Shown here one piece after another: positions 38,449 through 40,470 of a stretch of DNA of 64,000 nt. The notes under the pieces were generated by a model, which worked only from the letters and a program-made list of their open reading frames with translations, made no database searches and was not told where the DNA came from. This DNA is from Speluncibacter jeojiensis (GTDB lineage Bacteria > Actinomycetota > Actinomycetes > Mycobacteriales > Mycobacteriaceae): the NCBI RefSeq assembly GCF_029589495.1, contig NZ_JAAIVF010000004.1, forward strand, positions 62,001 to 126,000, given 5' to 3'. Each line of letters starts with the position of its first letter. Positions within the stretch are counted from its first letter, which is position 1. The translations under genes were made by a program, and so were the position numbers.

Positions 38449-39225
38449 GTGAGCACCCGCACCCTCGCCGACCTCACCGGCGCCGCATCCGACCTCGCCG
38501 CGGCCTCGGCGCGCGCGGTGCGCGCGATGTCCCGCGTCAAACTCTGCTGCGCGCTGCTCGCGGCACTCGGCTTCGTCGTGCTCGTGGCCCTGGTGCCGAT
38601 GCCGTCGATCGACGCGGTCCGCCAGTGGTCCACCGCGATCGGCCCGGCCTTCCCGTTGGTGTTCCTGCTGGCCCACGCGCTGATCACGATCACCCCCGTC
38701 CCCCGCACGTTCTTCACCTTCGCGGCGGGCGTGCTGTTCGGCCCCGCACTGGGCATCGGGGTCGCGGTCGCAGCGACGACGATCAGCGCGATCGCCGCAC
38801 TGATGCTGGTGCGGGCGATCGGACGCGAGGCCGTCTCCGCGCGGCTGACCCATCCGGCGGCCGCGGCGGTCGACCGGCGTCTGCGGCAACGCGGGTGGCT
38901 CTCCGTCGGTTCGCTGCGGCTGATCCCCGCGGTGCCGTTCTCGGTGCTCAACTACTGCTGCGGTGTGACGGCGATCCGGACCGCGCCATACCTGCTGGCC
39001 ACGGTGGTCGGGGTGCTGCCCGGAACGGTGGCGGTCGTACTGCTGGGCAACGCGCTGACCGGCGGGTCGAATCCTGCGTTGCTGGCGGTCTCGGCGGCCG
39101 GCTTCGCGGTGGGACTGATCGGACTGGTCGTCGACGCGCGCACGCCCGTCAAGGACACGACCGTCAAGGCCAACGCCTGTCAAGGACCAACACTGGACAC
39201 TTCACAATCAAGTCTTAAACCTTGA
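38449..39225 (+). CDS. TVP38/TMEM64 (DedA-like) family membrane protein
   Basis: A 258-residue inner-membrane protein of the VTT/DedA superfamily (Rv1491c-like). Diagnostic are FFTFAAGVLFGPALGIGVAVAATTISAIAALMLVR (a re-entrant helix with the FxxGxxFG core), followed by LRLIPAVPFSVLNYCCGVTAIRTAPYLLATVVGVLPGT. About five hydrophobic segments are seen. The family is linked to phospholipid carrier flipping. The C-terminal ~25 residues, rich in Thr/Lys/Ser, are coded by a stretch carrying repeated TCAAG sequences and may not matter to the protein. GTG start 7 nt after TAACCT. Confidence 0.88.
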   Translation: MSTRTLADLTGAASDLAAASARAVRAMSRVKLCCALLAALGFVVLVALVPMPSIDAVRQWSTAIGPAFPLVFLLAHALITITPVPRTFFTFAAGVLFGPALGIGVAVAATTISAIAALMLVRAIGREAVSARLTHPAAAAVDRRLRQRGWLSVGSLRLIPAVPFSVLNYCCGVTAIRTAPYLLATVVGVLPGTVAVVLLGNALTGGSNPALLAVSAAGFAVGLIGLVVDARTPVKDTTVKANACQGPTLDTSQSSLKP

Positions 39226-39241
39226 CTCTTTGCGATCAAGG
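39148..39241. repeat. Array of (G/A)TCAAG(G/T) elements at the satD-like promoter
   Basis: TCAAG occurs on the plus strand at 39149, 39164, 39180, 39208 and 39236, and inverted as CTTGA at 39221, giving TCAAG-N8-CTTGA (39208-39225). Spacings are 15, 16, 28 and 28. The array runs from the last codons of the TVP38 gene into the promoter of the SatD-like gene. Confidence 0.65.
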
Positions 39242-39250
39242 TCGTAACCT
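39222..39250 (+). promoter_or_regulatory. Promoter of the SatD-like gene
   Basis: TTGACT (39222-39227), 17-bp spacer, TAACCT (39245-39250); start predicted near 39257, 28 nt before the GTG. The -35 lies inside the inverted TCAAG/CTTGA repeat. Confidence 0.65.
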
Positions 39251-39284
39251 CGCCGGACGGATCCAGCTCCCGGGAGGGTGAGAC

Positions 39285-39866
39285 GTGTACGTGCTGACCG
39301 TCGACCAACGCGGCAGCCGACGCAACATCGACCGCGTCGACTCACTGATCAACGACCTCAACAGGGCCCCGCTGCTGCGCCCGTTCGAGCGCACCGCCGG
39401 CGACGAGGCGCAGGCGGTCACCGAGAGCCCCCGGCTGACCGTCACCCTCGCCCTCGACCTGATCCGGCGCGGCCACTGGAGCGTCGGCATCGGACTCGGG
39501 CGCGTCGACGAGCCCCTGCCGGCGAGCACCCGCGCCGGGCGCGGACCCGCGCTCGAGGCCGCCCGACAGGCGGTCACCCGTGCCAAGTCGGCCCACGTCC
39601 CGGTGGCGGTGACCGGCCCCCACGCCGATAGCGCCGAGGCTGCCGAGACCGCCTTGACACTCGTCGCGCTGATCGTCTCGCGCCGGTCGCCGCAGGGCCA
39701 TGCCGCGGTCGGCCTGATGGACCGCGGCCACACCCAGGCCGAGGTGGCGCAGGCGCTCGGCATCAGCAAACAGGCGGTCTCCCAACGCCTGTCCGCCGCC
39801 GCCTGGCAACCCGAGGTCGCCGGCCGCTCGCTGGCCGAGCGCCTGCTCCGCGAGGCCGACCTGTGA
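39285..39866 (+). CDS. SatD-like protein with C-terminal HTH
   Basis: A 193-residue protein. The N-terminal ~130 residues follow the SatD pattern: a strand opening YVLTVDQRGSRRN, the FERTAGDEAQAVTESP segment, and GIGLGRVDEPLPASTRAGRGPALEAARQAV. The last ~60 residues form an HTH with RGHTQAEVAQALGISKQAVSQRLSAA. Its ligand is unknown; the SatD domain resembles nucleotide-cyclase-like folds in some alignments, which I treat as speculative. A TTGACT-N17-TAACCT promoter precedes it, embedded in TCAAG repeats that could be its own binding sites. Its stop overlaps the start of a broken membrane-protein gene. Confidence 0.75.
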   Translation: MYVLTVDQRGSRRNIDRVDSLINDLNRAPLLRPFERTAGDEAQAVTESPRLTVTLALDLIRRGHWSVGIGLGRVDEPLPASTRAGRGPALEAARQAVTRAKSAHVPVAVTGPHADSAEAAETALTLVALIVSRRSPQGHAAVGLMDRGHTQAEVAQALGISKQAVSQRLSAAAWQPEVAGRSLAERLLREADL

Positions 39867-40046
39867 TCGCCGCCGGCCTGTTCCGGCCGGCCCGAGGGCA
39901 TCGCCGTCGTGCCGGCGGTCAAGGGGACCACCCGATATCCCGAACTGCGCGAGCCCGAAGCCTCCGAGCAATTCATCATCGGCACGTTCTCCAGTGTGCT
40001 GTGGGCGGTCGCCGCGTGCGGGGTCGGCCGCGCGTTACTGGGCTGA
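39863..40046 (+). pseudogene. Remnant of a small membrane-protein gene downstream of satD-like gene
   Basis: A GTG overlapping the SatD-like stop (39863) opens a frame reading MIAAGLFRPARGH. The convincing coding sequence is in the next frame, from 39894 to a TGA at 40044-40046: EGIAVVPAVKGTTRYPEL, then EASEQFIIGTFSSVLWAVAACGVGRALLG. I recall similar C-termini in intact small membrane proteins that follow SatD-type genes in related bacteria. The N-terminal hydrophobic part is missing and the frames do not match, so an internal deletion with frameshift is the simplest reading. A 45-residue product from GTG 39909 cannot be excluded. Confidence 0.5.
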
Positions 40047-40084
40047 CCGTCACCGTCGACATTCGGCGTCGTTCACACAAATGA

Positions 40085-40165
40085 CTACCCGTCGGTAGAA
40101 AATTGCTACCCGGCGGTAATTTACCAGTCGGCACCGCGTGCCGTATTCGATCGGCACCGCGTGCC
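40085..40165. promoter_or_regulatory. Paired operators and direct repeats upstream of the PHA genes
   Basis: CTACC-CGTC-GGTAG (40085-40098) is a perfect inverted repeat; CTACCCGGCGGTAA (40106-40119) is a second, near-perfect copy 21 bp on, two helical turns away. TCGGCACCGCGTGCC follows twice (40128-40142 and 40151-40165). The form suits a dimeric TetR-type regulator. Confidence 0.6.
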
Positions 40166-40470
40166 ATTTAGCGCGCCATTTCCCGAATAAGGCCAGCAGA
40201 GGGACCCCGACCTGCGGTATACGTGCCGAGAGGTCACCGCAAATGCGGCCCCCGACTGGACGGATGTCCATTCCACTGAGCGCCTCATGTGGACGACCAT
40301 TCATTCACGTCCGTTATATGCTCCGGCCGTCCGACCACCTTTTCGGCGCTTTCCCGATATTCCGGGTAACCGGTACTCGGCGCCGTGCGCAATTTTCTTC
40401 GTGAATGCGCAGGCCGGCAATGAATGGCATCGATTCCGGAGAATTCCGAAATCCGTACACAGGGGATGAA
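40166..40470. other. Non-coding leader region before maoC-phaC
   Basis: Less G+C-rich stretch with no frame of coding character. A TATGCT box (40317-40322) could start a transcript with a leader of about 140 nt. The segment just before the ribosome site carries two ATTCCG copies. No known riboswitch fold was recognised. Confidence 0.4.

Follow-up and report, generated by a model that had tools for sequence, protein, structure and literature searches.

A conserved half-site register in front of SatD-like helix-turn-helix genes suggests an autoregulatory operator for a regulator with a predicted cyclase-like fold

Genes for a branch of SatD-like proteins that end in a helix-turn-helix (SatD-HTH) are preceded by short half-sites that alternate in orientation at a fixed spacing. 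As judged by sequence comparison, this arrangement is an operator grammar shared across the branch, whose regulator has a predicted cyclase-like fold. We describe it from a 64-kb stretch of Speluncibacter jeojiensis DNA (the window) and from related genomes. Our interpretation, in which we have considerable confidence, is that the array is the operator of its own gene and that SatD-HTH is an autorepressor that would bind as a cooperative row of dimers, probably under nucleotide control. The analysis predicts a fold for the SatD-like branch, points to its probable DNA target and puts forward candidates for a specificity residue and a partner; the ligand and function of the branch are thereby open to direct test.

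The array in the window and its register across orthologues

In the window, a VTT/TVP38 gene is followed by the gene for the 193-aa SatD-like protein and then by a decayed partner gene (Table 1). The first-pass annotation had described six TCAAG elements in this region, and all six are where it placed them, at 39149, 39164, 39180, 39208 and 39236 on the plus strand and at 39221 on the minus strand, with the claimed spacings of 15, 16, 28 and 28 bp between direct copies. The densest 92 bp of the window contains these six copies. When the window was shuffled 300 times with dinucleotides preserved, the richest 92 bp held three copies in 21 shuffles, two in 259 and one in 20; the observed cluster is far above chance. 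The suggested genome scan for TCAAG-N8-CTTGA found one place in the 4.87-Mb genome, which is the present array. Elsewhere in the window, at about 40083-40165 and ahead of an ORF at 40405, we observed near-palindromic repeats (CTACCCGTCGGTAG and CTACCCGGCGGTAA) that resemble another operator, together with a repeated word similar to ATCGGCACCGCGTGCC.

Table 1. Features of the SatD-like locus, in window coordinates.
Feature	Position	Strand	Basis or remark
VTT/TVP38 (DedA-like) membrane protein gene; 3′ end holds part of the array	38449..39225	+	PF09335, E 4.5e-22
TCAAG, out of register, probably outside the operator	39149..39153	+	register table
TCAAG, out of register, probably outside the operator	39164..39168	+	register table
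Half-site TCAAG, in register	39180..39184	+	register table
Half-site with one mismatch (minus strand reads TCCAG; CTGGA on plus), in register	39193..39197	-	
Half-site TCAAG, in register	39208..39212	+	
Half-site (CTTGA on plus), in register, overlaps the -35	39221..39225	-	
-35-like TTGACT	39222..39227	+	sequence; orthologue consensus TTGATT
Half-site TCAAG, in register, within the promoter spacer	39236..39240	+	
-10-like TAACCT, 17 bp from the -35	39245..39250	+	sequence; orthologue consensus TAGCCT
Place of the next half-site, weak (3/5 letters), overlaps the end of the -10	39249..39253	-	equivalent at -8 conserved in orthologue consensus
GGGAGGG, probable ribosome-binding site of a leader absent from the orthologue consensus	39272..39278	+	sequence, inferred
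SatD-like regulator gene, 193 aa, GTG start	39285..39866	+	cyclase-like fold domain and C-terminal HTH
Residues 1-128, predicted class III cyclase/GGDEF/palm-type fold	39285..39668	+	AlphaFold2, structure comparison, hhalign, conservation
Helix-turn-helix; recognition helix about residues 162-171, with Q167	39735..39797	+	
3′ remnant of the membrane-protein partner gene	39882..40040	+	tblastn

Orthologues were sampled from 21 named relatives and from matches in 30 of 61 genomes, that of the window included. After removal of copies, 47 loci remained, counting the window, and the 150 bp upstream of each gene were pooled. Among inverted 5-mer pairs, spacings of 13 bp (76 pairs against 6.5 expected) and 15 bp (74 against 7.2) were in excess, and those of 14 bp (7) and 16 bp (3) were not; among direct pairs, 28 bp (153 against 8.2) and 56 bp (45 against 4.8) stood out. 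These peaks define the array as a half-site, 8 bp, an inverted half-site, 10 bp and the next half-site, giving a shared register with steps of 13 and 15 bp and a period of 28 bp. Further inverted peaks (9, 11, 17, 19, 39, 45 bp and others) were taken as words longer than 5 bp about the same centres, and the surplus of direct pairs spaced by 6 bp (36 against 7.2 expected) was put down to the GGC run in one locus (L022). Individual arrays were significant at p<0.01 in 36 of the 47 upstream regions; the other 11 did not reach this threshold.

As a control for the second step, four half-sites were scored in 78 upstream regions with a threshold of 18 of 20 matching letters. The threshold was reached by 53 regions when the second step was 15 bp and by 1, 1, 3 and 0 regions when it was 13, 14, 16 and 17 bp, respectively; at 15 bp, none of 390 shuffles reached it. 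The three cases at 16 bp (L020, L044 and L093) have a gap of 11 bp instead of 10 bp between inverted pairs, and protein contact across the gap may differ there; for L093 a reading of 8/10/8 was rejected in favour of 8/11/8. Of 53 TCAAG-type upstream regions, 41 contained a run of four to six half-sites, none of them with more than one mismatch. In 1060 shuffles such runs were never longer than two, runs of two being built in because the 53 regions were selected for at least one in-register pair.

The register redraws the array of the first-pass annotation, which had counted all six elements. Four of them (39180, 39208, 39221 and 39236) fall in the shared register, as does an overlooked copy with one mismatch, CTGGA at 39193. 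The copies at 39149 and 39164 lie outside the register and were rejected as parts of the operator; both are Val-Lys codons (GTC-AAG) of the VTT/TVP38 gene. These two of the six copies lend some colour to the idea that the repeats arose by tandem duplication or as a codon artefact of the 3′ end of that gene. We give this idea almost no credence, since the array continues beyond the VTT stop codon, its letters differ among species at constant spacing, and the arrays in front of the L011, L013 and L022 genes are also significant, where the upstream ORFs are other genes. The claim that each element lies near multiples of half helical turns was likewise abandoned: 13, 15 and 28 bp are no such multiples, 28 bp being 2.67 turns at 10.5 bp per turn.

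Linkage to the SatD-HTH gene, half-site letters and promoter

We searched 251 family genomes, 186 of which encode a SatD-HTH protein (E 1e-10), for the exact array pattern of 33 bp. It was found at 96 places in 61 genomes, compared with one place for the pattern read backwards. At 95 of the 96 places, the aligned start of a SatD-HTH orthologue follows at a distance of 3-116 bp (median 26), and each of the 61 array-bearing genomes has at least one such place. The 96th (G199:C247) is within a coding ORF and was taken as a chance occurrence; another ORF, which resembles an integrase, lies nearby. In the genome of the window, no match other than this promoter was found with up to two mismatches. 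A regulon was rejected, as three mismatches gave 13 other places on both strands versus 16 and 16 in the backwards control. Arrays at the gene itself, with a sole near-exact site in the window's genome, suggest that SatD-HTH regulates itself and has no regulon, to the extent that near-exact sites can show this. The comparison finds what characterizes an autoregulatory one-component factor, a putative operator in its own promoter that is conserved with the regulator. One orthologue, in Prescottella defluvii (CP121458.1; L015, 4001-4565), is frameshifted after about residue 97, through sequencing error or decay.

The first-pass annotation had guessed that the SatD-like protein is the ligand of the array and had named absence of the array upstream of orthologues as the outcome that would speak against it. 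The array is present there, apart from the upstream regions without individual significance. Together with the placement of the exact arrays and the tracking of the recognition helix by the half-site letters (below), this comparison partly supports the guess: its main point stands, two details were wrong, and the finding is larger than had been stated.

Some other regulator could bind the array, with SatD-HTH merely as its target. The letters TTGA and TCAA are common in operators, and the HspR operator HAIR, CTTGAGT-N7-ACTCAAG, holds CTTGA and TCAAG as well. This we regard as very unlikely, since a global operator should occur elsewhere, yet nearly all exact arrays are at a SatD-HTH gene, and since the half-site letters follow the SatD recognition helix. 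HAIR has a step of 16 and requires GT/AC inside; here the steps are 13 and 15, that from CTTGA to TCAAG being 15, and GT/AC is missing.

The letters of the half-site vary among orthologues, with TCAAC in some and ACAAG in others, and the spacing is mostly kept. Residue 167 was K in 5 of 5 proteins with TCAAC-class upstream regions versus 0 of 53 with TCAAG-class regions (52 Q, one L; Fisher p 2e-7), both classes being strict, such that 20 of 78 upstream regions fall outside them; among these, residue 167 is K in 5 and Q in 11. In a tree built from the N-terminal part, K at position 167 needs 6 changes, at least 3 of which are forced by supported branches. Three independent pairs lie on supported branches and all agree, giving a sign test p of 0.25, a number of pairs at which significance is unreachable. 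Residue 167 seems to be associated with the last letter of the half-site, on few independent changes and in a test weakened by relatedness. The half-sites of L049 and L051 are TTAGG-like with, by eye, the same 8/10 gaps (both p<0.01), and in these loci the change accompanies the recognition helix ASVTGAL. Across actinobacteria, changes in the half-site word seem to go with changes in the protein, and a 13/15 register that stays fixed while the letters change would be an unusually clear example of joint change in a regulator and a multi-site operator. A natural loss case is provided by L050 and L052 (genus g3, genomes of 2.3-2.4 Mb), the most diverged orthologues in the family, in which Arg replaces Asp7 and no array is significant.

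The consensus of 64 orthologue upstream regions contains TTGATT (-35 to -30), a 17-bp spacer and TAGCCT (-12 to -7), and the position of this -10 element indicates that the orthologue mRNA is probably leaderless. The window promoter is arranged alike, with an extra leader that contains GGGAGGG; a generic promoter scan did not call it. According to the first-pass annotation, an inverted pair encloses the -35 element. Instead, TTGACT overlaps the inverted half-site itself, and the last TCAAG sits in the spacer ahead of TAACCT. Half-sites at -36, -21 and -8 of the consensus cover the -35, spacer and -10, which favours repression. SatD-HTH might on the contrary activate its promoter from the array, and in the window the half-sites farther upstream, at -105 to -64, do lie where activators bind. 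We consider activation improbable, because the run ends at -8 in 31 of the 53 TCAAG-type orthologues, and a run across the -35, spacer and -10 should block polymerase.

In the autorepressor model, SatD-HTH dimers would occupy inverted half-sites (TCAAG-N8-CTTGA), and adjoining dimers would contact each other across the fixed N10 gap to form a cooperative row with a 28-bp period. Such a row would wind round the DNA, the mean step of 14 bp being 1.33 turns and three 28-bp units (84 bp) eight turns. By lying over the -35, spacer and -10, it would repress the SatD-HTH promoter, and with it the membrane-protein partner at loci that have one behind the gene. Binding of a nucleotide and metal to the N-terminal domain would tighten or loosen the row.

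Predicted fold and membrane-protein partner

An AlphaFold2 model built from 21 sequences had a mean pLDDT of 94.8. The best structural match of residues 1-128 was the class III cyclase Ma1120 (5d0e_B; Z 11.4, rmsd 2.4 Å over 105 residues), and the mycobacterial class III adenylyl cyclases Ma1120, Rv1264 and Rv1900c together gave Z 10.5-11.4 and rmsd 2.4-2.5 Å over 103-108 residues. Nearly tied with these were GGDEF (3icl_B, Z 10.6), GTP cyclohydrolase III (10.5), mCpol (9pd0_D, 10.2 over 94 residues) and Y-family polymerase palms (10.0). The predicted model has a cyclase-type fold, with GGDEF within 1 Z unit, and the closeness of GGDEF, GTP cyclohydrolase III and Y-family palms means that the fold does not fix the enzyme class. 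Foldseek returned nothing below E 0.001 (best E 0.0036, probability 1.0). A profile search of solved structures gave helix-turn-helix stretches as best matches and no cyclase among the matches listed, and the class III cyclase family PF00211 was absent from the 19 Pfam families listed at E<=1 for the window protein.

A profile comparison by hhalign used 8 of the 9 class III cyclases of the same genome. It weakly paired VLTVDQRGS with VLFVDxxGS and GDEAQAV with GDxALAxF (probability 43), so that Asp7 and Asp40 would fall on metal-site acids, an assignment that rests on this pairing and the topology. Asp7 (44/46), Asp40 (44/46) and Glu41 (45/46) are conserved in orthologues, the latter two in a Gly39-Asp40-Glu41 motif. 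The N-terminal domain is thus predicted to have a class III cyclase/GGDEF-like fold, and the kept acids in such a fold suggest that a nucleotide is probably bound with metal.

Two other views of this domain were weighed. The domain may be a degenerate dimerisation scaffold without a ligand, as the GGDEF-like domain of PucR may be; the published part of the MabR (PucR family) account that bears on this describes a GGDEF fold without the catalytic motif, plus a helix-turn-helix (PMC11617747). We rate this as a substantial possibility, though one that we do not expect to hold, given the conservation of the three acids and of GDEFQG in 10 of 11 true SatD proteins, as against the lost motif of MabR. 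At the other extreme, SatD proteins would be active nucleotidyl cyclases or polymerases with a DNA-binding domain, forming a spiral on the promoter whose turnover sets repression of self and partner. This seems rather unlikely to us; if true, SatD would make its own nucleotide signal while polymerising along its promoter.

A membrane protein with the signature IGxLER...AVKGLARYPELRE...SEQFIIGT follows the gene in at least 21 of the 47 orthologue loci, often overlapping its stop codon, and one like it was seen by eye behind 7 of the 11 true SatD genes. In tblastn, the window remnant aligned with residues 126-178 of the partner query at 75% identity (E 4.2e-24). This query was matched over all 179 residues downstream of L103, a close relative, and over residues 50-178 in L104 and L105; no match to it was found downstream of L024 or L003. 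The regulator is kept in the window despite the decay of the partner. Five partner proteins compared with Pfam gave nothing better than E 0.49.

The SatD family and known systems

The window protein scored 16.6 bits against PF16264, below the Pfam cut-off of 29, and we therefore call it SatD-like, a homologue; its genome contains no PF16264 match at E<=0.001. An hhalign comparison with 10 of 11 above-cut-off SatD proteins (99.8%, E 3.6e-28, 193 columns) indicated full-length homology. A search of 198 genomes of the phylum with the Pfam model identified true SatD genes in 12, in 11 of them over the cut-off. As scored by script, the strand-one Asp is present in 10 of these 11 proteins, and in the eleventh (L101) it precedes the start chosen by the script. 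The present branch shares with the SatD family the strand-one Asp, the GDE motif, the helix-turn-helix and, in many cases, a membrane-protein neighbour of similar kind. Within the branch the 13/15 register is clear; in true SatD it appears only at single loci such as L093 (TCAAC four times, gaps 8/11/8). In the pooled upstream regions of the 11 true SatD genes, direct pairs at 28 bp were strongest (22, expected 4.0), and the inverted peaks were at 12 and 14 bp, not 13 and 15 bp. A six-letter word is repeated at 28 bp in 6 of the 11, two of which are AT-rich near-copies. Three genomes of genus g29 in the same family (L096, L099 and L100) encode true SatD together with a membrane partner of its own, and they gave no match to the present branch.

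Published reports on satD, as far as the passages concerned extend, describe it as essential where present in Streptococcus pyogenes, yet carried by only 178 of 249 genomes (PMC11323703), as the target of an sRNA in Streptococcus suis, under the label 'DNA-binding protein' (PMC12005413), as an acid-tolerance family in a Fusobacterium annotation (PMC10326533) and as a lowered transcript in S. gallolyticus (PMC5786311). A gene that is essential yet accessory would be consistent with a protein that represses a harmful partner. The passages on SatD in these four papers do not mention a fold, operator or ligand. Our literature searches, which lay mostly outside subscription journals, found no paper on this operator, the SatD fold or SatD biochemistry, in agreement with the first-pass remark that the last is essentially unknown. 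A text search within a class III cyclase survey (PMC2447327) found no passage on helix-turn-helix, DNA binding or metal.

Among known systems, the class III adenylyl cyclases Ma1120, Rv1264 and Rv1900c are alike in fold, and their metal Asp positions align, weakly, with those of the window protein. In contrast to them, its cyclase-like part has only about 130 residues, is fused to a helix-turn-helix and gives no PF00211 match. GGDEF domains, which belong to proteins that make c-di-GMP, and the minimal CRISPR polymerase mCpol/OptS are nearly tied with it in fold. Unlike the window protein, the mCpol chain, at 119 residues, is too short for a helix-turn-helix. PucR/CdaR factors such as MabR (Rv2242) resemble the window protein in carrying a GGDEF-type fold followed by a helix-turn-helix. 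Foldseek gave weak matches to 9f80 (probability 0.75) and 3onq (0.63) at rmsd 14-15 Å, and GGDEF_2 (PF17853) and HTH_30 (PF13556) were absent from the Pfam families listed at E<=1 for the window protein. MabR, in the portion of its description that bears on this, differs from the window protein by an absent metal motif and an extra globin-like domain (PMC11617747). To that extent the PucR family is the nearest published architecture that we found, from which SatD is set apart by the acids that it has kept, by its small size and by its operator.
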